NCBI GenBank assembly: GCA_000310025.1
Contig: FN649737.1
Coordinates: 756,682 to 820,681 of the forward strand
From: Ectocarpus siliculosus
Lineage: Eukaryota; Sar; Phaeophyceae; Ectocarpales; Ectocarpaceae
Length of the DNA: 64,000 nucleotides
Reading direction: 5' to 3'
The translations under genes were made by a program, and so were the position numbers. Under the pieces are notes generated by a model. The model saw only the letters and a list, made by a program, of their open reading frames with translations, did no database searches and had not been told where the DNA came from. Positions 9,267-64,000 of the stretch are shown here, piece after piece (positions within the stretch are counted from its first letter, which is position 1; each line of letters opens with the position of its first letter).

Positions 9267-9547
9267 CTGGCATAAGATAGCACACACCAAACGGCGGGAC
9301 ACGTTCTGGTCTGTGGTGCGGTGGCATTGTTCCACAGGAAGCACGTGAACATGCGCGAATGAATACCTTGCCAAATGCCCTGAACTCATAAGACTGCCCG
9401 ACGTTTCCCGACCAAAGGGGTACCGGAGGTTAGAGTGATACACCGCCCATTGTGGAGCGAGGGTTAACAAAGAAATAGCAAAATTCCACCCTGCAAGGTA
9501 ACTCAATCGTTCTGCAACGAGTCACGCCGAGTGCCAACGGGGCCTTA

Positions 9548-19366: not shown

Positions 19367-19534
19367 NNNNNNNNNNNNNNNNNNNNNNNNNNNNNNNNNN
19401 NNNNNNNNNNNNNNNNNNNNNNNNNNNNNNNNNNNNNNNNNNNNNNNNNNNNNNNNNNNNNNNNNNNNNNNNNNNNNNNNNNNNNNNNNNNNNNNNNNNN
19501 NNNNNNNNNNNNNNNNNNNNNNNNNNNNNNNNNN
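19367..19534. other. Assembly gap (168 N)
   Basis: Unresolved bases between two LINE segments of opposite orientation. Open frames drawn through the gap are not real. Confidence 0.99.
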
Positions 19535-24027: not shown

Positions 24028-27000
24028 TTAGAGGAGACCTTCTTCCTCCGCTGCGTCGATCGCTACGCCTGCGGCGACGTCCGCGTCGACCAGGCCCTGG
24101 TCGGCCAAGAGACCGCCGTTCTCCGCGGCCACGAGGGCGTTCGTCTCCTGGTTCTCCGCCAATTCCTCGGCGTTCTCCACGATCTCCGCCGGGCTCAGCG
24201 TGGCGCTGGCGTCGGTCTCGACAACGATCAACGGGACTTCGGCAAGATCGCTGCAAACAAAGCGTGAAGGAAGAACAAGGTAGGAAAGTATTGGGCGGGG
24301 AAGAGGCGTGGCTGAGGCGTTCCCAACAATAAGGAGGAAGCATTCAAGGTAAGGGGGTTGTCGGTGCCGAGATGGTAGGTCAGCCAGGTACCCGGGCCAT
24401 CGGGCACGCCCTGTGACCCGTCCCTCTGCGTGTCGCGTTCTCTCTCAGGAGGACAAAAAGAACGAGAACGACGACACCAGTGGTAGAGACAGAGTTGGAC
24501 AACAGGCGGCTGGGTCGGAGGAACAGATCCATAAAATTCTGCAACAGTCAGAGGCGGTGGGCGGAATCCGAACGTGGTCCGTGCCGTAGAACCTCTCCTT
24601 CTCACAACCTTCCCGACGTTACCGTTGTTGCAAAGAAGCAACTCTTGGCAAGGAACAAATCTAACGGTTTCACAGGTAAAAATTCGATCTGCATGACGTA
24701 TTCCCCCACGACGAACTTCTACGTGCCCAGGCTTGATTAGATTGCGGTACCACAATCCATGGCGTGTTCTGCGGCCGCACTTCCTTTCTCACCTGGCATC
24801 AGGCTTGGTGCCCACCCTTGAGACAGTGGAGGCGTCATCGTCCTTGAGGTAGTAGGTGGTGTCGGTGCCGTAAGTCTCCGTGTCTTGGATGGAAAGGTCA
24901 GTCGTCGGGATCTGTTTTGCCGGTCGTGTGGGTCAACAAAAACGAATCAAACGTGATTGTTGCAGACAGATACATACCAAGCAACTTTCCGAGAGCGAAA
25001 AGGGTTTGGTAGTATGATGCCACCAAAGTGCGTGCTTTTCCATGCGCTTGGTGCAGCACGTGGCAGGAACACAGCCAGAAGAAAGATGCTACCTGCTGGC
25101 CCACTCGTGAAACACTCATATTGAGAAATGCTTCAATTCCTACAGACTCAATGGTTACGTCAAGGCCTTTGCCAAGCTACGATGCAATGGGCTACCATGC
25201 GATGGGTAGCATTTGGTATGGTGCCGGCGCGGAACCCACGTTTGTAATCCTTTCTTCCAAGTGTTCGTTGTGAACACACATATGAGTCTCGATATCCTTT
25301 GTGAACAAGTTTCCTGAGAGCAGGGTCACCACCGGATAAACCTAAACCTATCATCCACGGTAGCCCCGGTGGTCTAGTTGGTATCCTCGAAACCTTTTAG
25401 AGGTGGTTCGAATCCCGGCGTAAGCGAGCTTGCCTTGCAAAGTGAGTTTTTCTCTCGTTTCCGCTCCCGACCTAGTGGATAGCGCTAGTTCGTGTGTACA
25501 CAGAGGGAAGAGAGTGCTGAACTCTTCTCGCATTAAATATCGAAACTAACGTACCGCAGGAGGGGAGGGTAGAGAGGGGCCCTTCTGTGTGACCACGGGT
25601 TGGAGTAAACGGCACTGGTGCTGTGAGCGCTGATTTGACGTGAAGACGAAAAAAAAAAAAACATCCGCAAGCACAAAACCGCAAACCCCTTTGCGACCAT
25701 GAAGCCGATTAACAGTGAGTCTCGGAACTCACCGAGGCGGCGGAAGCGGTCGGGACGGTAAGGGGCACGAGGCCGGCCCCGCTGCCCGAGACGTAGGACA
25801 AGCCGGTAACAGCCCCGGTCGCGTCTAGGGCCATGGTGACGTACGGGCTCGAGTCGTCCAGAGCTTCGTGGAGAGTGAACTCGGTGCACAGGTCGTCGAA
25901 CTTGATGCTCTGTTCAGGTCAGTTTGGCAGTTGCAGGGAAGAGTAAACCACACGTGGGCAAGGTTCTGAATTCATCACTCATCATGACATGACCTCGGAC
26001 TTGACAACCAAAAACTGGTTTGTTGAACAGGAGAAGCTGGGCATGCCGCAATGTATCCCTCACCCTCACGGAACGTCGTACCGGTTCTGTATTTCGTGTA
26101 GAGGGGGGCGGGTAAGAGACTTAAGCCGTAAGCATATAGTACGGTTTGGAAAAACCTTCTAGAGCAAAGGGGGAAAGTAGTTGTCGCTGTTGGAGGGGCA
26201 GGATGGGACGGGAGGAGAGTCCGTGGCCGCTCTTGTTGATAAAAGTGATGCCAACACACAGAGCAACACCAAATACGTTTCGTGACGCATTCTTCTTCTG
26301 TTATGTTTGAGAAGTGCAGGTTGCGTTTCGAAAGTTTATAGTGATAGCAAGGGACCCCGCGATCCGACACATCTTCTTCGATGCTTTTCGAGAAAAACGG
26401 AACCGCCCTTTCCAAATAGCCTTTACGGGACTGCTGACATGCTATCGCCTGCGTTTGAGTACTGCAAGCCTTGACTCACCTTGACCGGGAAGGTGACGTA
26501 GCTGGAGAACACCTCCAAGACTCGCTCGTACCAGTAGTCGAGCAGGGACTGGGTTCCGTCGCCGACGTCCCCTGCCGGGATGATGTTGGCTTGGTGGAAC
26601 ATGTACTTGTCCCTGTTGCGATCCAAGTGCGACAAGGGGGCGTTCGTAGGGGGCGTTCGTTCCATGTGGAGGCGTTGAGGTCGACATACGGGGGCAGAGG
26701 AGTAGATGAGGTCCGATCGGAAAACGGAGCATCCAGTTGTAGAAGGCTTGAAGCGAGAGATCGTAGGCCTCCCGTCGACGAGGCGCAAGCTTAGTACAAG
26801 ACGCCAATCAACACCAGCAGTAAAATCTGGGCTACAACCGAATTCAAATTCGGCACGAAAATGAATGGAGACGTCTGTCCTGATAGTATGTTGAGAAATG
26901 CGTACAGCTGACCATTGCCTTTCTCCCTACCGTGAATACGAGAGAACACCGGGTAGGAGAGGAAGAAATTTGAGACCGCCCACCCTCCCTACTCTTAAAG

Positions 27001-30000
27001 CTTGATGCTTCTGAATCATTTACAGATTCATGTGGTCGGCGCGATAGTGCATCCATGTGGCTACCGGCCTCAGAGCTGGAGGTCTCATCCCAAAATCCAA
27101 TACTTACATTGAATGATCCTAGGCCAAGAGCAAAATACAACAGGAATTGCACAGACAAACAGGTATCGGTTAACCCACCGCCGAGAGGAAGAGCTACTGT
27201 AACACAACTGTCTCGCCTGCTTTCAGGCGCGGAGAATGCAAGCACACACGAAAACGGAACACACCTGCGAGACCTGAAGCAAGCAATAGTAGAGAACCGA
27301 AGAGCGGAAACAGACCAGCAATGAATTTCTGTGAAACGATAAAAAAGGGGTAACAGCCGCCGACCTGCGGCCAGTCAGCATGTAGCGCGTGGTGGTGGAG
27401 GCCTCGGCGTCGAAGAGGGCCTCGATGTCACCGAAGGACTGGATGTCCGGGGCGCCGTCGTCGTCGACGCATTCGTCTGCCGTGCTCGTGCAAGTCTTTG
27501 GCATTGAGGATGGAAGGATGTGGAGGGGAGAGCGAGATCACTCGTTAGGGGAAGACGAAATAGCGAACGTCTGTACAGCTCCGAATGATGATGACTGCCT
27601 GCACGGTTTACACCGTGAAGGTATGTCGAAGTGTCGACAGTGCATAAGATAAGATTGGGATATTGCTTCGTTTTTTTTGTACCGACACTGCCGTCCCTCT
27701 CCGGCAGCATTGACAAGACTCACGTAGTCGGCGATGCTTGGGTCGAGCGGGGTGCACCCGCAGACGAAGCGCCTGATGTACTCGTTCTCGTTCACGAGGC
27801 ACTGCAAGAGCCCCGGAAAAGTGAAGCAACAGGGGCACACCAATAGACGCGGTAAACGATCACAGAGCATAGTAATTGCAACCGAGAGACGGACGTAAGA
27901 AAAACAAGACCCTCGGTATGTTTCGTGGTCATCGAACAGATTTTGAGCCACCACAGGAAATTTTCAGCGTGGATTCGGGCCGACGCTCTCTGGTGTTGGC
28001 GGCGGCGTATCAACCAGGCGGCAAAGCGAAGAAACCTCAACGAGCAATAGTCATTAATCACACCACAGGTGGCCAGGGGGAGAAGTTGAGCCCGATCACA
28101 ACCTTTGAAGGTCGGGGTGAGGAGGTTGGAAGAACGGGATGGTCGTTTGATCAACATCACGTATCCGAGATGCTGGGTCAACTGCACACTTGGGCGTGCA
28201 ACCTCCCCACCCTAGGTTGTAACCGGTGCCCAGCCTACCCACAGCATGGTCTGCGGTCACCCGTGATGCCAAACACGGAAATGAAAAATTTCGTTTCCAC
28301 CGCACGGTGGTATCTACAGTTCACAAAACCAGGACGTCGGACAAGTGGGTCAGGGTGAAACGGCACCTCCGCCGAGAAGTGTACGATCGTGTTCAAGCTC
28401 GCGCAATCTGGGGCGACCGGCTGCTCACCACGGACGCACACGACACGAGAAAGCACAAAATCAACCTTCCCGGTACATTGGCGAGTAAAATATGCAAGCT
28501 GCAGCAGTACAGGACCTAATGTACTGCGCGAACGCAGTTAGGAGATCCTGGATATTGTTGGACATCATTGAGTGACTTACGGAGCCGGTGACGCAGTTGA
28601 AGTACACGTAGGTCGCGAATCTGGGCACGATTTGGATACCATCATAGCCTGTAGCAGACAGTATGGTTTGGACGAAAATGCAGGCGGCATTGGCGCAAAT
28701 AAGCAGGCGGCTGTGCGTTCAAGTACACCAAAGAGGTACATACGGGAGGGGGTGACTGCGGAGAGTTCGAGAGCATGAAGATAGAGGTGGTGGCCACTTC
28801 CAGGCACCATGACCTGCAAGACGTGACATACCAGTCTCATGTACACTACCGGGCCAATGACCTCGCATTCCTGCACTTGGGGTCTCTCGACCAAGAACGA
28901 ACCCCCTAGCGTGGTGTGAACGGTGGAAGTTGATGGAAACATCCCCCTTGGCGCCGGGTATCCAACAACTGCCTCGACAAAAACAAGCGAAAACTGGATC
29001 GGTATAGAAGCCCACACCGCACACGTGGCATGGACAAGGCCTCTCGACACCGAAAACAGCGGCTCAAGCTTCATGTGCATTCGTTGTTAACTCTACCAAT
29101 ATAAAGGCCCTGGCTAGAGGACAAAGAGGCGCTGACGGTGAAGGCGCCAACAGCAAGTTTGCTAGTACGGCATTCCGGCATGTGAACCACCACAAGACCA
29201 CGTCACTCCCCCGAAAGCCCACACATGTGCATTTGATCGTGTCACCTCACGTTCTCAGAAAAAAAAGGTACCAGGTGTAGACGTTACCCTCCCTCACCGT
29301 TGTCGGCAACCGTCGAGTAGATCGAGTGGAACTGGTTGTCTTCGTTGACTAGAATGGTAGCACCGGACACGGTTCCATCGAAGGTGTTGTCGCCAGGGTA
29401 GCACACCATCAGGTTCTGCGCCGCCGAGTCGAGGCAGTTCTCGTTGAAGAGACCCGTGATGCCGGGGGATACCATGGAGCGCCAGTTGTAGTTGTCGCTG
29501 TCCCACATGCCGGTCATGAGAGCGATCTGCACGTTACCTGAAAAATAGGTTTTCGACGGGAAGGAGGAAATGATACTTGATTTATTTATTGGATATTCTC
29601 GCTTTTCCCTATACCGGTGATGAGAGCGATTTGCCTGCCACCGGAGGTACGTAGGAAATAAGAAACTCTTCCCCAAACACCCGATTGCTTCCCTTCCAGC
29701 GCTAGCGCTTGCAACGCATTCGGCTGCTCTGCTGCAGGCAACGAGTGCAGTGACCAAGATCTACAATAGCGGCTCTTGCAGTATTTAATTCGCACCAGAG
29801 TCCTCGGTGACGCAGTCCGTCTCGCGCAGCTGGTCGCGGGACAGGTGGATGAGGGTGTGATGGCCGTGGTAGAACGTGGAAGACGTGTCCAGGTAGCTGA
29901 TCACCGCCACGAGAAGCTCGTCGTTGGCCTCCCAGGTGCCGTCGGCCATGTCTTGCTGCATGAGAGGGACGTTGGTGGCGAGCCAGTTGGTGTCGTGCAC

Positions 30001-33000
30001 GTTGATCTGACCTGAAACCACGGGAGAGAGTGAGTCGATGGGGCATTTCGGGGGGGGGAGGGGAGTTCTGCATTCTCAGGTATGCGGCTGTGTGTTGTCA
30101 ATGGCGGAGTCGGTATTCCCGCCGGAAAACTTTGGTTACGTACGAAGTGTCGACGTGCTATCATGCCATTAAGAAATCGGGAATCTTTCCGGTGTATCTT
30201 CATATGCTTTTTCGCCGATTCTGATAGTTCGGTAGATAGAGTGGGAGAGGGAGAAAGCAAGAGCAACATAGAGTGAGAGAGATAAAACCGTGCGCCGTTG
30301 GGCCTTGTTTTCCGGCCGGGCGAATCACACGCTGTCATAGCTAAGCAATGAGAATGGTTTACTCAGATATCGCCGCCGTTATCGTGAAAACACGGTTTCC
30401 TTCTTGATTCGTGGTACTTTGTTGTTGCGCCGGTGGTCCTGAGAAGAACAGGTCAATCAGTCCATATGGTGTACCTGTTGAGATCTTTGATGGGGCCAGA
30501 GAGCGACACTCAAGAAACACGACAACCACTATCAACTCACCGTCTTCGTACCACTGGGTGCCCTTCGTGGTCACCATGGTCTCCTCGTAGTCGGGCACGT
30601 ACGTGATGTTCTCGACCGCTTGTGACACCTGGTAGTTGGTGTCATACGCATAACGCCAAGAACATGTTAGATTGAGCAACAATACCCTCCACCCTGAAAA
30701 AGCAGCATGTGTTTATCTCTAGATCAGACACACTCCCGACTTCGACATGAATATCCACCATATTTCTTGGCTTGTGAAGCACTCTTCTCTCACAGCTATT
30801 GAATCACAAACGCATGAACGGTGTCAGCCATCGCGGGTCCAGCTCGACTACAGGGAAGCGCAGCGGCCACACCCCCCCATGGTGGGACTATAAACACGGT
30901 GCCAATAGACATGCTTGTGGCTGTGTCACGTTAAGCTTCGGTCGACACCCAAGGTTCATGACGGAGCAGTAGTTGTTGAAACGTGGGCGTTCCATGAAAA
31001 GAGGGCCGGTCGGAGGCAACCGAACGTAAAAAATAGAACCATCTGCGTGCACAGGCCTAGGTACAGTAGAACCGTCACCTACGTTCCTCCTTTGTGTGGT
31101 CACGCTTCACTCTTTGCGATACTCGTGCGAAGAAAAAAAGTGAAAAACAGCATCTACTCGTAAAATGTACCTTGACACCTATGTAACTGTCGTTCTGCAT
31201 TTGGCAAACACGCACAATTGACGACACAAGCGTCAAGCGACATGATACCCAAGACATCGAGACCTCCACCCTATCAAACGCACATGCTCCGCAATCCCGC
31301 CGCCGTTGAAGGCGAACTCGGTGATGATGTCCGATCCCGCGTACAGGGCGTTAAGTGATTGCTGCACGCTGAGCAGGTTCGTCAGGTCCTCCCCCGTGCA
31401 CCGCTGGGAGAGCGCGGCCTCGTTCAAGACCCCGTCGTACTCAAACTCCGGGGTGGAGAGGAAGAGGTCGTCGACAACCGCTGCCAGGTAGAAACGGCGC
31501 TCCCCCTAGTGAGCGGGGGGGGATTTCACAGAAGCAAAGTTAGGGGCCTTAGGGAAACATATCGTGGTTTGCCACAACCACTTGACTGCTGTGAACGAAC
31601 CACGCTTCTCTCATGAGGTGTACTATCGTGCTCCGCACAAGGCTGGATGATACCAACATTGAGTCGCAAAACATGAACTGGACGACAGCGTGCCCCAGGG
31701 CGAGAATTGGGTAGTGGCGGTCTTGCTGATCCGAGTGGGCAACATCATCTATGCATACCATCATCGACCAACGCTGGACATCCACCTGGAGCAGACATAT
31801 CGAGTTAAACCAATTTCGCTCATCTTTCACGAGCTTGTGCATAGTGTACAGTAGACATGTGCGTACTGCTCCAGACAGGCCACAACGGCGTCGTACACCG
31901 TGAACGGCAACGACGTCAGAAGCAGAGCACCACCAGCGACAAGTCACGTACCATGAAGATGCCCTTGGTGGCCCACTCGTTGTAGAAGTGCGCCCACGGC
32001 CACGCGCCGGCGTCAAACCAGCCGATGGTGTTGAAGACGTGCAGCTCCTCGTGGCCGTCAGCACCGGTGTAGCTGAGCATCGCAGCGTTTTCCTGGTCAC
32101 CCGCAGCACCGGATAGGTAAGGCTCGCTGTCACTATCGACGTACCTGTAAAAGCGGCAGGAGAGTGTGGTCGAGGAAAACCAAACACGGCGTGCCAATGA
32201 TGTTTCCTTGTGTACTCACAAAACGTAGCGAATATTGAGAAAACAACGCCACCGTCGCTGTCGCTGTCGCCATCACAGAAAAGAAGAGAACTCACTGCGC
32301 GAGGACCTCGATCCCCTCCTCGGGAACCGTATTGACGATCACCGGGTAGCTGAACAGGGCCGGGGTGACGACGTTCGGGTCGGTCTTAAAGCCGGGCTGT
32401 GTGATGGTCACCTTTTCCGCGCCCAGGTCTGGGTGGGGGGGTCGAGAGCAAGCATCGAACGAGGGGTAGCAAGAAAGACGACAGGTTAGGCTCCACTTTA
32501 TATCATTATTTCGACAAGCAGTATAGTCCAAGGGACAATGAGAGATCGAGGGGAGGGGTTTACCGGGGGGTGGGGGAGAGAGAGGACCATGATGCAAGGA
32601 GGACAAAGGTTGGATGACGGGAAACTGGCAATAACACGCCGACGAAACATATTAACCGAGCCGGTCGGCAGGAGGAGTTTGGGTGAAACTGACCCACAAG
32701 TGAGAGGTGTGGCGGGGAGAGACTGCCCCGCCCAGCGTTGAAGAAGGATGAAAATGGAAACAATGCCTCCATGATTGGCCACTGCTGTGCTGAGTCGCCC
32801 CGCATGTATGTACAATTTGTTCTCGTTGCTGTGCTTAGGAACCTGAGGAGTGGGCGAGAGGTGAACCTCACCGCTGAGCTGCACGAACGCAGGAGTCACG
32901 ATGTCCCCGGCAAAGTACGTCTGGATCCCGAGCTTGGTCGTAAAGCTCTCGGTGGTGTGGGTGAGAGCGGACGGGAAGTAGACGAGACGGACCTGCACAA

Positions 33001-36000
33001 GAAAACAAGAAGACGATTGACACAGCAACATTAGTAAAAAATCCCACGCAACGGTCACGACTGAAGATATATGGTCTCTGAGGTCAAGATAATCTTCGAA
33101 CTTCGATGCATGTATCAAAGCGAACTACTGTACACGCGGAACACGGAAAGACACCTCGTGTGCCCGCACAAACCAAGTGGCAGCCAAAATAGGTACACGT
33201 GATTTTCCCTTGATGTTGCTATTGGTGGCTTTCCCGTTTCGACTGGCGACCGGATACTTCACAGCGTGCACGACGCCAGTCCACGATATTCTTCAATTAC
33301 AACGTAGCTGCCGTAGCCGAAAGAGTTATTCAGTCAGAAAATACAACAGTGGTACATGCTTCGATCGATGGCATCTTCCGGAAATAACCAAATCGAGCTA
33401 CACATACATTCGTCGTCAGACCATGCTCAAGGCTAGGAGAAGTACCTTGTACTGTGCCGAGTAGGCCGTGAGAGCGGCAACCTGAGCCGTCGACGGCGCG
33501 TAGCCGATGTACACGGCGTTGCACTTTCCGTGGGGCACCCCCGAGGTGTCGGTCGAGTCCACCAGAAGGGCCGAAAGGTCGTCGGTTTCAGATACGACAT
33601 ACTCCTCCTGCAGTAACAGCAGCAGCAGCGGTTACACGGCAATCGGCGTGGGTAGTGTGTTAGCGGTAGGGTAGGGTTGGACTGAATTGGTGCGATATTC
33701 GGTCATTTGAAGGCGGCAGGAGGTGAGTTGAAATTTCGCTTGCGCGACTCAAAGACTATTGGCAAAGAACATGTAGGGGCGGAGGTCTCACGTGATGTTG
33801 CCGGACAACTGTTCGTGTGCGCATAGGCCGATTCGGGGACAGGATATGGACTTACATACACTGCACGCAAACCCAGCTGTATCACATGCGACTGTAGTAC
33901 CCAGGGCTGGGAGGTGCCGATGATGGAATGATGCGGTGTAGTGGTAGCTACGGACGGGCAGATTTGGTTTCACTCAGCCCCCTCTGAATAACGGCGGGGG
34001 CAGGGACGCTTGAAGCAGCACGGGTCACAGCGCGCACTCCATCTACATGCAATCTAATGTGGTGGGGATGGTCACCAATGCAGCAAAGGGGCAGGGTGGC
34101 GTCAAAAAGAAGGGCCGAAAGGTCGTGTGCCCCTAGCTGCAACGCACGGGGCGTGGGGGCGGGCATCAGCAAAATTCCCCTAGCCGCGATCGTATCGGGC
34201 GTGCGTGGGGTAGGGCACCAATATTGAAGCCTTAACCGCTTCGAAAGGGGCGGAAGGGAGGACAACGTTCAGCCCCTAGCCGCGTCCGACTGGTTATGAG
34301 GAAGGGCAACGTTAAGCCCCTTAGCCGGTTGAACATTGTGAGGGGTGGGGCACTACTGCGCCCCTGATCGCGTCGACAGGGGTATGGGGGAGAGCCACCC
34401 AGCTCCTAGCCGCGTCGCAACATGCCTGGGGGAGCGCTACACGGTCTTCTACCGCTAGCCGTGTCGTAAGGGGCGTGGAATACGGCACTACTCTGCCCTA
34501 GCGGCGTCGTAAGGGGCATGGGGAAAAGAAAAATTCAGCCCCAAGTCGGGTCAAACGGGGTGAAGGTGAGGGCACAACTCCGCCCCTAGCCTTGTCGTAA
34601 GGGGCGTGCGGGAAGGCAACATTATTTTGCCCCTAGCTGCTTCACAAAGGGCGTGGGGAAGGGTAACTTAAATCAGCCGCGTTGTAAGGAGGGCGATTGG
34701 GCCTCTGGCCGCGTGGAAAGGGGCGTGGGGAAGGGAATATTTCATGGAGGTCCGTAGGGTGCCCATGGAGTTCCATGGATGTGCACGGCCCAGTTCATGG
34801 CATTCCGTGGGGCTCAATGGTATGCCATAGGGGGTCCATGGAAATCCATGGACAGTGCATGGAGTTCCATGGCATTGCCAAAAGGACGTGAACGATTGCC
34901 ACGTTGCTATCATGAGCACTTGTCTACCCTGACGCAAGATATCAACACTTAACGGTTGGATCTACTGGCTACGTTCGGGGTCCGTCCATAGAGGGCAGAT
35001 TATGGTATTATGTGCGCCAGGCCGAATCACCCGCCGAGGACGGGCACACCCGCCGCCCGAACAAAAGCATTACAGACGCTGTGAAGTATAGAAGTATCAC
35101 ATTAGCATGAAGATCAAGAAGGTCAAGCTCTACACCTGCGGGCGCTATCTGACCATAAATGTGACCAGGGAGTACACCCGCCCGATTCCGGCCAGCCGCC
35201 CTACAGCCTAGAGGGGGCCCGGATATACTTCCTGTCGACGAGTCCTTTTACCCGCACAGCAGGTGCGCTTCCAGACGCCACTATGGAAGACCCGTCTTTG
35301 TATCGAGGGCGGTATCTCGCACTCCAAAGCGAAGGTGAAAATGAACTCACCGTCTTGGGAGACCAGTATCCCTTGAAGAACAGCGACATGATGTACAGTG
35401 CTGGGTTGTTCTCGTTCGACTCCCCAACCTGGGTTGTTACCATCAACCACGAGAAACGAACCGGTCATTGTCGATACGTCGTTCATACGTGTTCGCGTGT
35501 GGGTAGTGGAGCATGTGAAGCACCTGTGACTGCGTGGAATACGGAAATGCGGGTTTATGGAAAAAAGACACGCTGAAAATAATAGGACTGGTGCATAGTT
35601 TGTGTATTGTCGTATTGTCGTCATGTCATCTCCATTTACCGTTTTCACTATGTGCCAGGCTGCTCGCAGCCCTGAAAGTGTTTGTGACCGCCGTTGCCAC
35701 ACATGACAAAATATTGCCTAATATTTTCAAACGGCAACGTGCGCCATGCAGGAGAATCTGCAAACATGAAAGAAAAAGAGTTATGTAGTCTACCATGGTA
35801 TATGTTTACGTGCACGCTGATGTATTGCATACGCACCGCCAAAGAGGAGAACAGGCAGGGCACTAGGTCGACGAGAACATCTCCGCTGACAGCCTCAGTA
35901 GGGGCTGTGGTAGGAGGTGCCGTGGTAGGAGGGGCAGTGGTAGGAGAGGCCGTGGTAGGTGGCGCCGTCGTGGGCGGCAGCGTGGTAGGCGGGGCCGTGA

Positions 36001-48100: not shown

Positions 48101-48189
48101 TCCATGTGTCATCGTGCCATTGAGGATTCTAGAGCATCTCTCCGACGCATTTTGAAACGCTATTTCGGCGATTCAGATATTTGTGGAGA

Positions 48190-48254
<65 letters not shown>

Positions 48255-51200: not shown

Positions 51201-54200
51201 CTGGTGTTAGCACTTCTGTATCAACACTTTGTACAGAGTACTGTATGGACTAGGCACGAAGCAAGGCGACAAACACCGCACGCCCGAACAAACCAACAAG
51301 GTGAGAACCCGCGGGGTACAAGGGTTTTTCCTCTACACTGCTATTGGTGGCTTTACAGTATCGATTGGCCACTGGATACTTCAAAGCGAACGTTGAAGCC
51401 AGTCTACGACATAATTCTCAAGCAAAACTGTAGATGTAGATCCGTAGATACAAGGGTGTTTCAGGCAGAAATTGTGCGCGAGAGCACATAGTACATACAT
51501 CGATCGATCGAATTTTTTAGAAACAACGAAACCTATTGCAAATATTCTGATCAAGTAGACCTTGCCTATAGCGAGGTATATGATACTCGCGTGTCACGTT
51601 GTACCTTAAACTGTGCCGAGTAGGCCGTGAGGGCGGCAACCTGAGCGGTCGACGGCGCATAGCCGATGTACACGGCGTTGCACAATCCGTGGGGCGTGGC
51701 GTCGGTCGAGTCTACGAGAAGTGCCGTTAGGTCGTCGGTGTCAGACACGACATACTCCTCCTGTAGCCCCAGCAACATCAGCAGCAGCGTTTGCGAAGGC
51801 GGTTGTTGTGTCGGCGTCGATTAGTTGTGATCGGTTAGTAGGCCTCCATGGGTGCGGTTGATCGACTTGGAAGGCGCGGTGGGCGGGGTTCGACTTCGCC
51901 GGCGCCACTCCAATACCTCGCCTCAACTTTTACTAGGCCGTTTATCCGCACAGCAGTAGTAGATTCGTTTCGAGACATAAAAAAGAAAGACTCGTCGTGG
52001 TGTTGAGTGCGGCATCTCTCAACCTCAACAGAAGAAGAATAAGAACTCACCGTCCTGGGAGACCAGTATCCCTTGAAGAACAGCGACATGATGTACAATG
52101 CTGGGTTGTTCTCGTTCGACTGTCCAACCTGGGTTACCATCAACCACGAGAAACGAACCGGCAATAATTATTAAGTTGTAAAGTACGTCGTAGATACCTA
52201 TGTGACTGCGTAGGGAGGAAATCGACGTAATGGGACGGAGACACGATGAAAACAACGGAAAGGCACAGTTAATTGTTTCGTTGCTGTTCGTCAAGTCATC
52301 TCAGTCGACCGTTTTCACCTTTGCCAGGCTTCTCGCTGCCCTACAAATAGTCCTGAAAGTGTGTGTCGACCTTCGTTGCCAGGCATGACAGAGATTGCCG
52401 AAATTATTCAAAAGACAACGTGCGCCATGGAGGAGAATCTGCACACATGAGAAAAAAAGGAGTTGCTGTAGTCTACGGATTACTTCTATCTATTAATGTT
52501 GCATACGCACGGCCACGGAGGAGAACAGGCAGGGCACTAGGTCGACCAGAATGTCTCCGCTAACAGCCGCAGTAGGGGCCGTGGTAGGGGGGGCAGTGGT
52601 AGGCGGGGCCGTGGTAGGAGGTGCCGTAGTAGGAGGGGCCGTGGTAGGAGGGGCCGTGGTAGGAGGTGCCGTAGTGGGAGGGGCAGTGGTAGGAGGTGCC
52701 GTGGTAGGAGGTGCCGTGGTAGGCGGGGCCGTGGTAGGAGGTGCCGTGGTGGGTGGCGCCGTGGTAGGCGGGGCCGTGGTAGGAGGTGCCGTAGTAGGAG
52801 GGGCAGTGGTAGGAGGTGCCGTGGTAGGCGGGGCCGTGGTAGGAGGGGAAGTGGTGGGAGGGGCCGTGGTAGGCGGAGCCGTGGTAGGTGGTGCCGTCGT
52901 GGGCGGCAGCGTGGTAGGTGGAGCGGTGACAGGCGGGGCCGTGGTAGGCGGCGCCGTGGCAGGCGGGGCCGTCACGTCGCCTGTTGTCATCGTTGAACAT
53001 GCAGCAGACCATAACGGCGACAGAGCGGGGGCGAAATTAGGGGGGAGGTGAACGGGAACAGAAATAGACATGTAACGGCCAAACCCCTCCGTCGTCACCG
53101 CCACAACCACCACCACGCAACAACAGTCTACGATTACATGCATACTTCAAGGGAAGCGTTATCGACAATGAAGAAGGGATGCGCATATTTGGCGTCCAAA
53201 TGTATGCTTACCGTCCATGGCGTACACATCCATGGCCCAAGCGCCACCGCAGGTGGACGAAGCGTCTCCGGTGCAGGCGAGAACGCAGTTGTCGGCCTCG
53301 CCGTAGATCGTGTAATCCTCGTCCGCAGTACCGCAGAAGCACCTTTCAACGTGAGTCCAAACCGAGGGCGCCGACAAAGCGAACGAGACCAATCGAAGTT
53401 CGGAGGAAGGGCATCGGCATGTTGTCATCTCTTTTCGTCGGATTCGAACGCTTCGAATAGTTGACAAGAGAGGGAACAATTCAGCCACAGAAACATAAAA
53501 AATTTTGTACTCTCTAACATGGCCAAACCAACAAACACCAAATGTCTCCCACTCACTCTTCCCTGTACTGCAGCCCGAAGTAAGCGTAACCGACGCAGAC
53601 GGCCTTGCAGGTCTGCGAGATTGACGGACGTAAGAAAGAAGCACGGGGGGCGCGTCAATAATGCCGGTTGGTTAGCTCTGGTGGTTCTGTGTAGCGCCGG
53701 TGGAATTTCTGAGCACAGACTGCATCATCCAAGTAATTATGTGTATTGAAAAGCGCCGGCGATGCGCCGGGCACATACCGGCGTTGTTGAGGGGCCCCCA
53801 CTATACACGTTTCGTTAGACGGATCACAGAAGATATTTTCGTGAGAATAAGGGAAAGAGGCCAACGACGTGGCGCCGGTCAAGACAACCGTTTAGACAGA
53901 ACACAATGATACCAGAGACGGAAAAGTGGAATTGGAAAGTCATCAGTACCACACTTCTACAACCAGCGAGGCAACCAAAACCAACACCGATTTGTCGGGG
54001 CGATTCAGCGACAAGCTATCAACCCCTTCTCGAATAACACGCACGGGTGCGACTCCGCGCAGCTGCCGCAAAGGCAGAACCATACCTCCGCGCTGTTGTC
54101 GGAGCTAACAGTCATTGGCGCCGAGAATATCCTGGACCTGGTATCCGCGTAGCAGCCAAGGTACCCCGTGATTACCGCCGTGACAGGAGGGGGCGTGGGA

Positions 54201-57200
54201 GTCGGGGCCGTCGCAGGCGGGGCCGTCACGTCATCTGTTGTCATCGTTCAACATGCACAAGACCACAAAGGCGACAGAGAAGGGGGGCGGGGGTTGGGAA
54301 CATGATCAGACCATCGCAATAACCAACACCGTCGCCACCACCACGCAAGAACGGCCTATGGTTCGACAAGGGAAGGGAAGCGAGTTCGAAGAAAGGCTGC
54401 ACCCGCTTTCGTCCTTGCCCTTACCGTCCATGGCGTACACATCCATGGCCCAATTTCCGCCGCACGTGGACGAAGCGTCTCCGGTGCAGGAGGCAACGCA
54501 GTTGTTGGACTCGCCGTAGATGGTGTAATCCTCGTCCTCAGTGCCACAGAAGCACCTAACAACGTGCATAAACGCCGAGGGGGCCGAAACAGGGAACGAG
54601 TTTTAGAGGAAGGGGCGGAGGGAAATGGGCGTGTTTGCCGCGGTGACGAGGATTGAGTGCATTCAGGTATCCGAACCACAAGACAAGGAAAACCGTAAGG
54701 CCAGTCTGCTGTACCTATTTCCTGCTACATAAAACCCCAACCAACTCGCCGAACCTTTTCGTCGTCTCCGAGCACTCAGTCCAATAGAGAAGTAATCGAG
54801 AACAGAATAACAACTCAACACTGCAATTGCAGTTGAAAATAGCAACATGACCTTCGCTCTTTCAACGAAAACCAACCAAAACACGAAATGTCTCCCACTC
54901 ACTCTTCTCTGTACTGCAGCCCGTAGTAAGCATAACCGACGCAGGCGGCCTTGCAGGTCTGCGAGAGATCGACGGACGGAATACCACAGAAGCGAGTTTC
55001 TTCTCACGGGTCACAGATGGATGGGTCATTTTCCGAGGAAGAGGGTGTAGAGGCCAACGACGCTGCCAGATAAGCATATCCTGATATAGAACACAAACAC
55101 ATGCGGCGGGGCAGTGAAACTGCAATGGCGTAGATACCGTTCTTCGCCACCGAGACCACAAAAACAACAACAATAGTTGGGGCGACAACAACGAGACCAC
55201 AATCCACCTGACCGTTTGTCCGCGAATACGGGGGCGCGATTATGCCCCAGATCGCAACAACAAGGTAGAAACACGTACCTCCGCACTGTTGTCGGAGCTG
55301 ACAATCATTGGCGCCGAAAATATCCTAGACCTGGTATCCGTGTAGCAGCCGAGGTACCCCGTGACCTGATGAACGATGGAAGCCAGGGGCGCGGTGGGCG
55401 GGGCCGTCGTAGGCTCATTCTGGGACCCAACTCACAACAACAGGGAACCCATGATACATTTACTTGCCCGTGTACAGAGTAAACGTAGATTTAGGCGTTA
55501 GTTCTTACCTCGTATTTAAAATTCAAAGAGGACTTTTCGACCAAGTCGTCAGAGTGCATGACCATGGCGCTAGAGACACGGGAGTATTGAAGCGAGTCTA
55601 CATCTCGGCATCGAAATTTAGCAAGTTTTTTGATGAGTTGGCCGCTTTCTTATCCAAAGGGCAAGTCAAGCGACACGTTCTGTCAAAACGCGACATCGAG
55701 TGTGAAACAATAGCTGCTCGTGTTTTCCTACGCTGGCGCGAGGGGAGCCGCGTCTATTGCACGAGACGATACCTTTAGGGGGGCTGGCCGCAACGATACA
55801 AAATTGCCAGGTTTATCTGAACAAAACGACGGATGGCTGTGATTGCGGCAGGACCCTCGACACACTTTCTGCAGTTAGTTTAGTTAAACCGCCCATGGGC
55901 ACCACGTTGGGTCCATGGTGAGCAGCCCGTGGGTAGCCCATGGGCGGTCAATTGTGCCTTCAACCGGAACCAGTGTACTCCTAATCAAGATTATCTGCAT
56001 TGGAACGGACGTTATAGCGGCGAATAACCCTAACGCTTACCCTGACCCTAACCCCAAGCCCACAGATGCGTGCTACACATTGCCGCCGGTGGCTAAGTTC
56101 TAGGTTGATATGCCGGTGGCTAGTGCTACCCGGGTGTCCCATGGGCGGTTTAGCAGAACTGCCAGTAGTGTGGGAGATTGGACTCTACAAGGCTCACGGA
56201 GTGCAAAGATGCTGTGGAAGCCGGCGTGACGCTGCTGTCCACCAAGTGGACAGGCACAAGGTACAAATATATTGTAGCGTGAAAATAACAATCCGGGAAA
56301 GATGACCGTGTTGGCTTGCGTTGGGATCTATGTAATTACCCCGAGGTTACCCCCGTAACGACACTTTATTGACCACAAAGAAAGGCATACACCGTGGCCC
56401 AATCGACGAGTTCGCTGTGATACGTGGTGTGTGAAGATGCACCGAAACTGAGAGGCTGAGGCCGTGAGTATTAATTAATCTCGCTCAAATAAATAATGTG
56501 ATACATACACCCGTGTCGACACCTTTGTAGCGAGTACCAACTAAGGTTGGGTCGGTGGGACCTCCTCGGCGTGACACTTTAATTGGACCACGATGTACAA
56601 TTAGACAAAACCAAGCAAGCAACCACAATCTCGACGGAGCCTGAAACACATGGTTTTTCGTTGTGATGCTGGGGAACGGTGGCAGCAATGTTCGGGTGAA
56701 CGCACTGCACTTCATGTGCCTTATCCTGTCACTCAGCGTGAAGCCAACGCCAGGTTAGCAATTAGTACCACCTGAAACAGGCCAGTGTTCCGTTTTCTGG
56801 AGCCCTCTGGCAGGACACAGGGACACCATTTTCATTAAGGTTTACACGACAAACGAAAATCATTTAGTCTAGAGATCTCGGCCTTCGGATATATTTCCTC
56901 GTTCATGCTGCTTGGCGAGTTCCGATCTCTCTCTCTCTCTCTCCCTCTCTCGTGCCCTGCGCACACACTCTCGGCAGCCTGCCATGAACACTCTTACTCT
57001 CAGTCATGCTGGTGGGGTGTAGACTATACACATTGTGCTCCCCACCAGCCAGATAGGCATAAGACTACAGCAAGCACCTTTCACTTGCTCTCGACGATTC
57101 TGTTCTTATTTCTGTCTATTGTATGGTGCGCGGGTGCGGCGCTCATCATGAACTGCTTATCATATCGTCGGACAGCTTGCCGAGAGGGTCTGGTTGCATA

Positions 57201-57953
57201 CACCTCACACGTCCAATGATGCTTTGTTTCAGAAATAGCACACATGCCACGTCCTATCGAGAACAACAATCCCCCCATGCCGGTTCTCTTCCGTCTTGGG
57301 AACTGTCGCTTCTCTCAGCGTGTGGTGGTGTTGGCAGAACCGCCAAGCCGCAAGACTCTCCATTGTACTACACAGTGTGCACTTGCAATTACAAGTCGTC
57401 TTCTCGGGGAAACATGTGTGCGTCAAAAAGTTATTCCGCCATTCACTCACTTGCCAAACCTGACGGACGGACCCAGCGTTCTTTGGATCGCATCGTAATG
57501 CCGGGGTGTGTACCATAAAAGATGGTGAGCACAAGCATGAACACGGGACGGGGAACGTGACCGGGCATGTGCACGAAGTCTACTCTGCAGGCGGTGGCAA
57601 AGGAGGGCCCCTGGCTTGACGCGGTACGACAAGATACGGCAAAGAACACACCCACCATGCACACCGGACTATTTCGTGTGACCTGCTTGCCTACCTACAT
57701 ATGGTACTTGTTTGCGTACCACGAACAGCAGCAAGCAGCATACGGCACGCAAAACACCACAACCTGGCGGGCGAAACAACGCTGACAAACAAAGACGATG
57801 CTGAACTTGCAGACCCCTTACCGTCGTTTGCAGCCTGCGGGTAGTAGCAGGGGTAGTGACGGGGACGTCTCCATGAGCGCGAATCCCAATCGCGTTCGCA
57901 GCGACGGCACAAAGGGCGCCTGTTACCAGCGCAAGCTGCGGTGATCGCGGCAT
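42136..57953 (-). CDS. Gene B: secreted double-WSC, Agd3-like (CE18) polysaccharide deacetylase
   Basis: The model has 24 exons: 57822-57953, 55279-55419, 54903-54958, 54425-54555, 54086-54234, 53557-53612, 53212-53342, 52511-52980, 52051-52128, 51605-51760, 50928-51048, 50358-50493, 49910-50102, about 49242-49477, 48587-about 48726, 47771-47986, 47281-47520, 46559-46626, 45734-45811, 45327-45457, 44678-44810, 43797-43973, 43165-43283 and 42136-42367. They total 3720 nt in frame (1239 residues). Order: signal peptide (1-22), short EPTTAPPTAP spacer, WSC1 (63-153), spacer, WSC2 (175-265), mucin-like TTAPP linker to about 405, CBM87-like beta region to about 650, deacetylase-like region (VVDDLFL near 662, HHTLIH near 825-830, QIVPRFAT, YMFHQANI), beta-rich tail and an acidic end. 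It is presumably secreted to the wall, held by its WSC domains, and removes acetyl groups from an unknown glycan. Family assignment is by recalled similarity. Confidence 0.77.
44399..44502. repeat. Four copies of a 26-bp unit in intron 21 of gene B
   Basis: Perfect or one-mismatch copies begin at 44399, 44425, 44451 and 44477. The unit runs from CAACTTTTTCG to the AGCGA before the next CAACT. There are no spacers, so it is an ordinary minisatellite. Gene A lacks it. Confidence 0.92.
47578..47621 (-). pseudogene. Relic of the exon 17 start inside intron 16 of gene B
   Basis: The minus strand reads GDVQIVLTTGMR, resembling GNVQIALMTGMW at the start of exon 17 (47520). The AG acceptor of the real exon is not kept in front of the relic. 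See the equivalent in gene A at 29608-29647. Confidence 0.65.
48199..48250. repeat. (GA)26 microsatellite in intron 15 of gene B
   Basis: An uninterrupted GA run of 52 bases, preceded by a short CA run. It is likely to vary between individuals. Confidence 0.97.
52511..52980 (-). repeat. Gene B: coding minisatellite, mucin-like TTAPP linker
   Basis: This 470-nt exon holds about 26 copies of a 15-bp unit read as TTAPP, far more uniform than in gene A, ending in TAAVSGDILVDLVPCLFSSVA. Near-identical units point to recent slippage or unequal exchange. The product is a long, rigid and probably O-glycosylated spacer between the WSC domains and the catalytic part. Confidence 0.88.
53212..54234 (-). 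other. Gene B: WSC domain 2 (exons 5-7), extra module absent from gene A
   Basis: The three exons (149, 56 and 131 nt; 336 in total) start and end in phase 1, so the block can be inserted without a frame change. It starts with a DVTAPPATAPTPTPPPVTA spacer and keeps all eight WSC cysteines. Introns around it resemble those around WSC1, as expected for a tandem duplication of the module. Confidence 0.87.
54425..55419 (-). other. Gene B: WSC domain 1 (exons 2-4)
   Basis: Encodes GYLGCYTDTRSR, TCKAACVGYAYYGLQYREE and CFCGTEDEDYTIYGESNNC through TCGGNWAMDVYAMD, with all eight cysteines. It is preceded by a short NEPTTAPPTAP spacer that gene A probably skips. Confidence 0.87.
55885..56152. mobile_element. 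MITE-like element with 15-bp terminal inverted repeats
   Basis: TAAACCGCCCATGGG (55885-55899) is matched exactly by CCCATGGGCGGTTTA (56138-56152). The body of about 240 bp is non-coding and has another CCCATGGGCGGT box at about 55938. It lies in intron 1 of gene B (2.4 kb, against 1.0 kb in gene A). A clear target-site duplication was not found, so a chance or compound origin remains possible. Confidence 0.5.
57822..57953 (-). other. Gene B exon 1: signal peptide
   Basis: The 44 codons begin MPRSPQLALVTGALCAVAAN, a short basic start and a hydrophobic core ending in AANA. Gene A has MPRPQQLVLAISLWAAAANA at the same place, which supports this ATG over the in-frame one at 58010. After the signal both share GIRAH, DVPVT and RRLQT. 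The exon ends in phase 0 at a GTAAGG donor. Confidence 0.75.
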
Positions 57954-60410: not shown

Positions 60411-63400
60411 TTAGAGGAGGCCTTCTTCCTCCGCTGCGGTGATCGCCACGTCTGCGGCGACGTCCGCGTCGACCAGGCCCTGGTCGGCCAAGAGATCGCT
60501 GTGCTCCGCGGGCACGAGGGCATTCGCCTCCTGGTTCTCCGCCAACTCTTCCGCGTTCGCCACGATCTCCGCCGGGCTCTGCGTAGCGCTGGCGTCGCCG
60601 GCAACGCTCTCAGCGACAAGCGGCGGGACTTCCGCAAGCTCGTTGTAAACAAACGTGGCGGAAGGACAAAGTAGGAGAGGTTGCGAGAGGGAGAGGCGAT
60701 GTCTGCAATCGGGAGGAGGCATTCATGGATAAACGGGACGTAGGTACCGAGAACGCACGGCAGCTTAAACAACCCCCCTTGGTACTTTGCTTGACATGGA
60801 GTTCCTCGTGAGGAAAAACCAAATCTACACCCTTTCCTAGTGGAGACAACGTGGGAAGGAGAAGGCATCTGGCGGGGTAGGAGAACAGGACAAAAAGCCT
60901 CCCACCGATAGTCGATGGCGCTCACTGGAACCCGAATGCGGCAGTTCGGTGAAGCCCGATGATAATCGCTCCGCTCGTGGATGTTGAATGACCCATTACT
61001 TCTGTGGCCCGAACCCTCGTTTCTTCGTTCGCGTGGTTTCTGAAGCTAACGACGGGCATCATACCCGCTACGTTTGGATTGAACAACATACACCAAAAGA
61101 CCGCTTTTTTCGGATTTACACGAAGAATTAGTCGCATATTTTCCTCCCGTCGATCACCGGTTCGTTTCATCTCACACAGACTTAACGGCAGCCTTAACGA
61201 CGCTGCCGTGGTCACGAGAAGAAACTCTTGCCGAGGAACTACTGAAAGAACGACAACGACGGTGTCAATTTCGAGGTCCTTCCAGTATGTCACAAAACGA
61301 ACATCACAACTTCGGAGTCCATCACTGATGTCCCAACGCCGGACATCTACCCAGACTTGGTGAGAGAGCGGTGTATCCCAACCTATCTCGCCTGCCGCGG
61401 TTCACCGCGCTCGGCTCACCTTGCGTCAGGCTTTGTGCCCACCCTGGGGATAGTGGAGGCGTCGTCGTCCTTGAGGTAGTAGGTGGTGTCGGTGCCATAC
61501 GTCTCCGAGTCTTGGATCGAGAGGCCGGTCGTCGGGATCTGCTTTATCGGTTGTGATATTTGCAGACAGATATACGCATATGAGACCTAAGCTTTCGAAA
61601 ACGAAAATGGAAATCGAAGAAAGATGACACCAGCGTGTGTTATGTCCAGAGGATTGAAAGAAGGGCGCTACAGTGCACTCCCGGCACGCTCGTAAGAAGC
61701 AGCAACTTTGAGTAAGGGCGCAACATTGGTACTGACGAAATGATTGCGCCAAGGCCCTCGCTAACTGTTTGTGTGTGGTACTTGGCGCTGAGCTCACGTT
61801 CATTTCTCCATTTCTCTGATGTGTGTTGAGCCTATGAACCTCGATGTATTTGTCAGCAAATATCTTGAGAGCGAGGTCAGCTGGGCCAACACTACATAAA
61901 CCTAAACGCAATCATCCGCACAAACCATCCGCACAAACGCATGAACCCGCCAATCTCCTTTGGTACGATGAAACAAGGCTTAAGCGAGTTACCGAGGCGG
62001 CGGAAGCGGTCGGGACGGTAAGCGGCACGAGGCCGGCCCCGCTGCCCGAGACGTAGTTGAAGCCAGTGACAGCCCCGGTCGCGTCGAGAGCCATGGTGAC
62101 GTACGGGCTCGAGTCGTCCAGAGCCTCATGCAGCTTGAATTCGGTGCACAGGTCGTCGAATTTGATGTTCTGTTCGGGTCGATTGGGGAGTTACACGAGA
62201 GAAGGGCCAGGGCCAGGCGAAAACCCGTGGACAAGGTTGTGCACTCATTAGTCATCATCACGCGTGTTGTTCGGGTACCAATGAATACGGCTGGCACCTC
62301 AACAGCAGGCTGTCCAGGGATGTTGAGACGTTATCCCCTGGGTTTCATTCAGTACTGGGAGGCATGGCTCACCTTGACCGGGAAGGTGATGTAGCTGGAG
62401 TACACCTCCAAGACGCGCTCGTACCAGTAGTCGAGCAGGGACTGCGTTCCGTCGCCGACGTCCCCTGCCGGGATGATGTTGGCTTGGTGGAACATGTACT
62501 TGTCCCTGTCACGATACAAGTGCGACAGGAGGAAGTCCGTGTGGAGAGGTTCGTTTCGGCATTCGGGGACGGAACGATTAGATTAGTTCCGATGGGAAAT
62601 CAGAGGCGCTCAAGAGGCTGCAGAATCAACATTGCCAATACATGCCATAGACTGACAACTACCATTTGTTGGAAAGCGCTAAATGAAAAGTGGACAGCAC
62701 TCCCGGCATATTACCCGCAGACGAACAACAACATACCAATCAAATTCAACGAAACACAGCTCGACGAAACCGCACGCGAAATCGCACGCCTCTTGCAGTA
62801 ACACCACCACCACAAGTTTTTCCCGTCGCGTGCTTTCCGGTACGGATGAAACAAGCAACACTACAAGCACCACCCTTCAGCACAAGAATACGTAAAGACA
62901 CACAGAACGAAACGGGAAATGATCAAAAGCCGGCACCGAAAAAGATAGAGACGGAAACAAAAGGGACCAAAACCGACCTGCGGCCGGTCAGCATGTAGCG
63001 CGTGGTGGTGGAGGCCTCGGCGTCGAAGAGGGCCTCGATGTCACCGAAGGACTGGATGTCGGTGGCGCCATCGGTGCCGATGCATTCGTCCGCGGTGCTC
63101 GCGCAACTCTTCGGCGGCATTGAGGAAGGGGGGTGTAGGCGAGTGCGAGATCAGTCGGTGGAGGACAATTTTGATTGCAGATGTATATGCAAAATCAAGG
63201 TCACTGCCGGGCAGATTTACCGCGAACATTGTGAAGATATGACATTGCACAAGACAGTATCGAACGTGCGCCATTGTGTCATGCTGCTGCCCCTTTATTG
63301 TTCTTGTAACGGCACCACCTTCCCTCTACGGCAGCATTGAGAGACCTCACGTAATCGGCGATGCTTGGGTCGAGCGGGGTGCACTCGCATACGAAGCGCC

Positions 63401-64000
63401 TGATGTACTCGTTCTCGTTCACGAGGCACTGCAAAAGCCCGGGCACAGCGGAAAGGAAGGAGGACAATAATAGAGACAGGAAGAGTGGTCACCGCAGAGC
63501 ATAGCCATTGCTACTGAGGCAAAGAGGCGAGCAGACGAAACACGAGACAAACAACCACGTCCTCGCGTCATCCATCATCGAACGGAGTTCGAGCAGCCAA
63601 AGCACCCACTGAATGTATTCGCCCGACGCTCTTCAGAATGGCGACGGAATACCAACCAGACGGCTAGAGCCTCCAACCGGAAGCGACCCAGCATTCAAGC
63701 CAAACACGGTCGTCACTGCACGAGTGTAAACACAACAAAGATGAGGCAAATAGGGCCGACTTGAAACCCCACCTATTGTAGGCCGAGCCTCGGGAACGGC
63801 TGGGTGTACATCAACACGTAGGTGTACAAGAAACACAAGAAACACATTTCATTCACAACACTAGCTTAGGGAATGCCGCATGTTTCTGGACATCATTGAG
63901 CCACTTACGGAGCCGGTGACGCAGTTAAAGTACACGTAGGTCGCGAATCTGGGCACGATCTGGATGCCATCGTAGCCTGCAGGGTTAGTATAAGGACGGA
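60411..64000 (-). CDS. Gene C: third Agd3-like deacetylase paralogue, 3' part only
   Basis: Seven exons equivalent to the last seven of gene B are present: 63909-63976 (GYDGIQIVPRFATYVYFNC), 63351-63428, 62978-63108, 62373-62505 (YMFHQANIIPAGDVGDGTQ), 61993-62169, 61420-61538 and the terminal exon, coding to the stop at 60411. Lengths are the same as in B (68, 78, 131, 133, 177 and 119 nt), so the frame is kept and the gene appears under selection. The terminal exon has lost the usual acceptor: the AG seen in A and B is AA at 60643-60644. A TTGCAG acceptor 60 nt upstream would keep the frame (exon 60411-60702) and add about 20 residues. WSC, linker and metal-binding exons lie past the right edge. 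Confidence 0.75.

Follow-up and report, generated by a model that had tools for sequence, protein, structure and literature searches.

This work describes an array of putative polysaccharide deacetylase genes at positions 24028 to 64000 of a 64,000-nucleotide stretch of contig FN649737.1 (the window, a term used below for this whole stretch). The array lies on the minus strand and consists of three paralogues, referred to here as A, B, and C, arranged head-to-tail in the same orientation. The gene A model encodes, in order, a signal-like N terminus, one WSC domain, a Pro/Thr-rich linker, a CBM87-like region, a CE18 domain, and a C-terminal part with an acidic tail. Gene B has the same order, but with two WSC domains and a longer linker. 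A first-pass annotation, made from the nucleotide sequence, had proposed three head-to-tail paralogues with conserved exon lengths and phases. The gene models uphold this layout, with A and B complete and C partial (assessable in its last third only).

Gene models were built after open reading frame (ORF) fragments of copies one and three had been paired with copy two; exon borders were taken from A-B nucleotide alignments. Exon lengths in A and B are equal for 15 of the 21 shared exons, the remaining 6 differing by multiples of three; exon phases agree throughout, and neither model contains an internal stop. All six of exons 15 to 20 in gene C have the same length as their counterparts in A and B. 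The GT/AG junctions were chosen during model building and therefore do not count as independent evidence; independent support for the exons comes from the common lengths, the phases, and the drop of A-B identity at exon borders.

The Pfam profile PF25115 (Agd3_CE) matches A at 157.2 bits (E 7.4e-46) and B at 155.0 bits (E 3.6e-45), with a cut-off of 27.6, over positions 2 to 363 of its 366, and it gave no match in 14 control genomes. The Agd3-type CE18 domain suggested by the first-pass annotation is thereby substantiated. When the PDB was searched by sequence at E values up to 1, the sole match was entry 6nwz (Agd3; E 1.3e-23), with 27% identity in the aligned part. For Agd3, the available text of PMC7229062 gives D377 as the proposed base, D378, H510, and H514 as the metal ligands, and H668 as the proposed acid, with R613 in motif CM3 and M666 in motif CM4. 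Adhesion is no longer detectable after changes at six of these seven residues, and R613 is described as integral. In the sequence alignment, A and B carry the identical residue at each of the seven positions, the anticipated Asp/His/His metal site among them. The motifs VVDDLFL (E11), HHTLIH (E13), QIVPRFAT (E15, in gene C as well), and YMFHQANI (E18), picked out in the first pass, are all present in the models. Judged by these alignments, A and B almost certainly encode CE18 deacetylases.

Between A and B, synonymous divergence (dS) is 0.200 and nonsynonymous divergence (dN) is 0.044, which gives a dN/dS of 0.22 over 916 codons (mucin-like exon excluded). The ratio is 0.21 for A-C (306 codons) and 0.25 for B-C (309 codons). 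Several catalytic exons are nearly invariant; exon 14, for instance, has a single nonsynonymous difference in 79 codons. Because of the low ratios and the near-invariant catalytic exons, we regard A, B, and C as genes under purifying selection rather than chance frames. Homogenization of the exons alone was considered because the exons appeared far more similar than the introns; it was not upheld, as synonymous sites differ (dS 0.20) and intron ends are partly alike. Identity of intron ends between A and B ranges from 0.55 to 0.94 (19 of the 20 shared introns compared), versus 0.58 to 0.63 for shuffled 5' ends, so that some ends are at chance and some are well above it. In gene C, whose last intron and exon lie within 60411 to 60760, AA stands in place of the AG acceptor that precedes the last exon in A and B. 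An alternative acceptor upstream, TTGCAG, would start the exon at 60702, keeping the frame and adding 20 residues; with this in-frame site present in the genomic sequence, the candidate explanation of gene C as a pseudogene was not upheld.

Ahead of the catalytic part, the WSC profile PF01822 (cut-off 27.8) matches A in one stretch and B in two (97.5 bits for the two stretches of B), and 8 Cys are invariant across the three WSC copies (one in A and two in B). The linker is encoded by 15-bp tandem repeats, with 15.5 copies in A (35901 to 36133) and 26.6 copies in B (52574 to 52972); its length is unequal in the two paralogues and might also be polymorphic among individuals. A Pfam similarity of this linker to extensin stays below cut-off. 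The PF01822 matches, the Pro/Thr exon, and PF25115 together bear out the proposal that WSC domains and a mucin-like linker are joined to an Agd3-type deacetylase. The signal-like N terminus of A and B was judged by eye and hydropathy. A second hydrophobic stretch follows immediately after the linker (residues ∼218 to 237 in A and ∼387 to 405 in B), and its sequence would suit either an opening strand of the CBM87-like domain or a segment lying in a membrane. Coordinates of all features are collected in Table 1.

Table 1. Positions in the window of the three genes, their exons, and their encoded domains and motifs
Feature	Position	Strand	Remarks
Gene A	24028..38427	-	Complete model, 21 exons, 20 introns, 1029 aa
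Gene A exons E1-E5	38427-38302, 37304-37215, 36866-36811, 36480-36350, 36141-35837	-	
Gene A exons E6-E10	35428-35351, 33607-33446, 32992-32872, 32428-32296, 32144-31952	-	
Gene A exons E11-E15	31505-31284, 30628-30541, 30011-29796, 29537-29298, 28648-28581	-	
Gene A exons E16-E21	27801-27724, 27495-27365, 26612-26480, 25909-25733, 24911-24793, 24250-24028	-	
Gene A WSC (E2-E4)	36350..37304	-	PF01822, 51.6 bits, cut-off 27.8
Gene A linker exon E5	35837..36141	-	305 bp, Pro/Thr-rich, mucin- or extensin-like
Gene A CBM87-like region (E6-E10)	31952..35428	-	Likeness to Agd3 CBM87 clear in second half only
Gene A E11, CM1	31284..31505	-	VVDD: proposed base and metal Asp
Gene A E13, CM2	29796..30011	-	HTLIH: two metal His
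Gene A E15, CM3	28581..28648	-	PRFAT: Arg
Gene A E18, CM4	26480..26612	-	YMFHQAN: Met and proposed acid His
Gene B	42136..57953	-	Complete model, 24 exons, 23 introns, 1199 aa
Gene B first WSC (E2-E4)	54425..55365	-	PF01822 match
Gene B second WSC with short Pro/Thr lead (E2b-E4b)	53212..54234	-	PF01822 match
Gene B three extra exons (second WSC)	54234-54086, 53612-53557, 53342-53212	-	
Gene B linker exon E5	52511..52980	-	470 bp, Pro/Thr-rich, 15-bp tandem repeat
Gene B E11, CM1	49256..49477	-	
Gene B E13, CM2	47771..47986	-	
Gene B E15, CM3	46559..46626	-	
Gene B E18, CM4	44678..44810	-	
Gene C	60411..64000	-	3' part: exons 15-21 (63976-60411), in frame; remainder past window end
Gene C E15, CM3	63909..63976	-	
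Gene C E18, CM4	62373..62505	-	

The introns of gene B also hold a 26-bp tandem repeat (44398 to 44503) and a pure AG microsatellite (48198 to 48250). Elsewhere in the window, a run of N at 19367 to 19534 marks an assembly gap or masked stretch, and a reverse transcriptase-like fragment on the plus strand (20173 to 20775; PF00078, E 1.5e-4, 22 bits, under the cut-off of 29.6) is perhaps a retroelement remnant. The window gave no Rfam match and no tRNA, and there were no NCBIfam matches.

The window has a GC content of 52.9%, and introns in gene A (20 in all) have a mean length of 566 bp. Introns so long and so many speak against a fungal gene. For three brown algae, the available part of PMC6418280 gives a GC content of 54 to 56%, introns of 530 to 740 bp, and 7 to 10 introns per gene. 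The GC content of the window and the intron length of gene A fit brown algae, as do the WSC fusions to CAP domains known from that group (PMC12879055), a fit that falls short of proof; a brown algal host is likely.

To place the window genes within CE18, bacterial members of the family were drawn from a Deinococcus ficus plasmid, two Spongiactinospora loci, one Actinosynnema locus, and further bacterial genomes. PF25115 matches occurred in 6 of 396 genomes from the phylum of G001, in 1 of 24 from the class of G003, and in 8 of 199 from the class of G358 (5 of these 8 over cut-off). A search of plasmids with the CE domain of the window proteins found none, and a search with the Agd3 stretch found one, that of D. 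ficus. Viral contigs searched for the CE domain yielded 2 stretches that fit the pattern and no relatives, and genome contigs searched with the window and Agd3 patterns yielded 81 stretches and no relatives. An unrooted tree was built from 13 rows comprising A, B, Agd3 (the one fungal row), and 10 bacterial proteins; it omits the partial gene C, L003 for its closeness to L002, and, as weak or partial matches, G432, G558, G523, G472, G490, and G536. In this tree, A, B, and Agd3 are split from the 10 bacterial proteins with support of 100/99 and in 100% of 200 bootstrap trees. CM1 and CM2 are 142 residues apart in A and B, 132 in Agd3, and 75 to 92 in the 10 bacterial proteins. Because of the grouping with Agd3 and the long CM1-CM2 spacing, the window genes are assigned to the fungal type of CE18, as far as an unrooted tree with one fungal row defines it. 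Among the bacterial loci, the Actinosynnema locus (L004) has two adjacent CE18 paralogues (6992 to 9073 and 9083 to 11128) in which the CM3 Arg is replaced by Asp and the CM4 Met by Thr. Two further CE18 proteins from bacteria resemble PF12062, the heparan sulfate N-deacetylase domain, at a sub-threshold level (L014:7233-9545, E 8.7e-5; L016:7719-9671, E 0.0012), and a distant tie between the two families is possible.

A candidate partner for CE18 is suggested by bacterial gene neighborhoods. On D. ficus plasmid pDFI1 (L001), a Pel-like cluster consists of pelF, a CE18 gene annotated as a hypothetical protein, and two GH114 genes; in G358, CE18, a PelF-like glycosyltransferase (DUF3492 plus GT4), and GH114 share one 12-kb contig. 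GH114 was counted in the 12 genomes or records with a CE18 match over cut-off and was present in 7 of them. In 5 of the 12 (W01, G558, G418, G358, and G001) it lies 0.4 to 4.8 kb from CE18, where random placement expects 0.06. The two genes are 23 kb apart in G206 and on different contigs in G003, and no GH114 was found in G002, G013, G043, G432, or G523. The pairing of CE18 with GH114 is also described in PMC7229062, in the part available. For brown algae, the accessible text of PMC11468063 lists GH114 among the best-populated hydrolase families (∼5 genes per genome) and gives no role for it there.

We propose that the array encodes a tandem family of secreted, metal-dependent CE18 polysaccharide deacetylases acting on a galactosaminan-like surface or matrix polymer, a statement that, taken whole, we rate at even chances. 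Its substrate component is about evenly balanced too; a galactosaminan-like polymer is our best guess because GH114 occurs near bacterial CE18 and because brown algal genomes carry ∼5 GH114 genes each. More specifically, the GH114 link and the specificity of Agd3, which deacetylates alpha-1,4-linked N-acetylgalactosamine (alpha-1,4-GalNAc) oligosaccharides (PMC7229062, available text), would favor an alpha-1,4-GalNAc polymer, endogenous or microbial, which is a guess. In the proposed mechanism, the signal-like N terminus would export the protein, the one or two WSC domains would anchor it on wall glycan, and the long Pro/Thr spacer would give the catalytic part reach to the polymer. A divalent metal would be held by Asp-His-His, with the adjacent Asp activating water and the His of MFH serving as the acid. 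N-Acetyl-hexosamine units, most likely alpha-1,4-GalNAc, would then lose acetate, rendering the polymer cationic and adhesive. The target would most likely be a polymer of the organism's own surface or matrix, and GH114 would be the partner hydrolase, in the way that Ega3 partners Agd3. The role in wall remodeling or defense suggested by the first-pass annotation is an inference.

Several observations weigh against this proposal. One concerns the CBM87-like region: CBM87 extends the GalNAc groove in Agd3 and appears only weakly conserved in A and B. The Pfam profile for this module (CBM87_Agd3) matches neither protein, although it matched all six bacterial CE18 proteins scanned (P0001, L014, L015, L016, and the two of L004), and hhalign aligned 141 of 229 columns collinearly, at an E value of 0.012 and a probability of 3.6. 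The region of A nevertheless scores above all 300 shuffles against Agd3 CBM87 (z 7.1), mainly through its second half, whose z of 6.0 no shuffle in 300 equaled, whereas 9 of 300 equaled the z of 2.2 of the first half; against five bacterial CBM87 domains, 11, 168, 2, 0, and 32 of 300 shuffles were as high. The CBM87 module of the first-pass annotation is partly supported, and we read the region as a putative, strongly diverged CBM87. There is no Trp in A or B at the positions of W292 (Ile in A, Val in B) or W344 (Phe), in a part where the alignment is uncertain. The aromatic residue of CBM87 is given as W334 in one passage of PMC7229062 and as W344 in another; we took W344 as meant because residue 334 is Met and residue 344 is Trp in the numbering of 6nwz. 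Within the CE18 domain, Y620 of Agd3 is Phe in A and B; the substitution Y620A in Agd3 causes a small loss only (PMC7229062, as available). The hydrophobic stretch after the linker is as strong as the N-terminal one by 19-residue hydropathy in both A and B, so a membrane anchor is possible. As for the GH114 link, W01 and G358 were known before counting, and adjacency without them is 3 of 10; by genome, GH114 occurs in 7 of 12 records with CE18 versus 7 of 30 CE18-negative genomes taken from those scanned (Fisher one-sided p 0.037, two-sided 0.067). From these counts, co-occurrence of GH114 and CE18 is modest, but their adjacency, at 5 of 12 within 5 kb versus 0.06 expected, is strong. No GH114, and no synthase or glycosyltransferase beside the deacetylase, was seen among A, B, and 10 of the 72 ORFs listed for positions 1 to 24000, a set that could miss spliced genes elsewhere in the window and any genes outside it; with no GH114 among these, a cluster like that for fungal galactosaminogalactan (GAG) is not in view. 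Finally, the available part of a review of the macroalgal matrix (PMC8307928) contains the terms acetylglucosamine, amino sugar, and deacetyl 0 times each.

Other readings of the array were weighed as well. The proteins could act in defense or microbiome control, deacetylating foreign polymers (fungal GAG, a bacterial Pel-like polymer, or chitin from attacking or epiphytic organisms) and so opening them to cleavage by GH114 of the alga or by other hydrolases, with no algal galactosaminan involved. Brown algal PR-1 proteins contain WSC domains (PMC12879055, available part), and tandem duplication with a variable linker fits a defense gene, if weakly; the dN/dS of 0.22 and the near-identical catalytic exons, on the other hand, indicate constraint rather than diversification, and we consider this reading unlikely while granting it some weight. 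Some fucoidans bear O-acetyl groups, and the enzymes might instead be O-deacetylases of an ordinary wall glycan, removing O-acetyl from fucoidan or another acetylated sulfated polysaccharide. Because the CBM87-like part has diverged from that of Agd3, the substrate may indeed differ, and this divergence leaves room for another acetylated glycan. All four motifs, however, conform to Agd3, even in the CM3 Arg, a residue absent from 4 of the 10 bacterial rows, and we consider O-deacetylation improbable.

De-N-acetylation of a different hexosamine polymer, such as a chitin- or poly-N-acetylglucosamine (PNAG)-like glycan, is similarly improbable. Enzymes of family CE4, whose metal site is comparable, have PNAG and peptidoglycan as substrates (PMC7229062, in the text available), and 2 of the 6 bacterial CE18 proteins scanned show the sub-threshold heparan sulfate N-deacetylase similarity mentioned above, but the specificity of Agd3 and the genomic link to GH114 point away from such polymers. 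That the array consists of pseudoenzymes or pseudogenes is very improbable: the AA before the last exon of gene C is offset by the upstream in-frame TTGCAG site, and A and B combine uninterrupted frames and intact catalytic residues with a dN/dS of 0.22.

The founding paper on CE18 (PMC7229062, as available) describes the family from fungi and bacteria. Searches of open-licence papers for CE18, Agd3, WSC, GH114, or deacetylases in brown algae, judged from abstracts and text passages with supplementary tables aside, gave no earlier report of CE18 or Agd3 in a brown alga. In the available text of PMC7229062 the string "alga" occurs 0 times, as does "CE18" in that of the main text of PMC11468063; the supplementary tables of either paper may list such genes. 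The novelty lies in the union of CE18 with WSC domains in tandemly arranged genes whose host probably belongs to neither the fungi nor the bacteria; outside those two groups, an array of CE18 enzymes docked by WSC would represent a new architecture. Should the host be a brown alga, the GH114 enzymes reported from that lineage (PMC11468063, part available) gain a candidate partner, and the question of whether the brown algal matrix holds, or acts on, a deacetylated galactosamine polymer becomes testable, with a bearing on adhesion, biofilms, and alga-microbe contact. A bolder and doubtful extension of the galactosaminan proposal is that brown algae have an unrecognized surface polymer of the galactosaminan type, to which wall-docked CE18 would confer adhesiveness and which GH114 would turn over. 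If true, a photosynthetic lineage would have its own equivalent of fungal GAG and of bacterial Pel.

Among known systems, Agd3 of Aspergillus (6nwz) shares with A and B the full-length CE18 domain, the seven essential residues, the long CM1-CM2 spacing, and a disordered, O-glycosylatable segment ahead of the folded part. A and B differ in adding WSC domains and, between CM3 and CM4, a further Cys-rich segment, in a strongly diverged CBM87, in their 20 and 23 introns, in their tandem copies, and in having no GAG cluster in view. Bacterial CE18 proteins (Deinococcus and Actinomycetota, several adjoining GH114) have the CE18 profile in common with A and B, and all 10 rows retain the metal site together with the residues proposed as base and acid. 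Unlike A and B, they have the short CM1-CM2 spacing of 75 to 92, lack the CM3 Arg in 4 of 10 rows, and, in the six proteins scanned, match the CBM87 profile in every case and WSC in none. The PelA deacetylase domain (CE21) and CE4 enzymes have a comparable metal site (PMC12022489, available part) but belong to other families, and the PDB sequence search with the window protein returned Agd3 alone. On the WSC side, WSC wall proteins and WSC fusions are on record for brown algae (PMC8307928, PMC11333212, and PMC12879055, each as available), including fusions to CAP domains in PR-1 proteins (PMC12879055). These PR-1 proteins and a WSC protein raised in the sorus of Saccharina (PMC12879055 and PMC11333212, available text) resemble A and B in placing WSC in secreted or wall-related proteins; their partner domain is CAP or is not given in these sources, whereas in A and B it is a predicted deacetylase.

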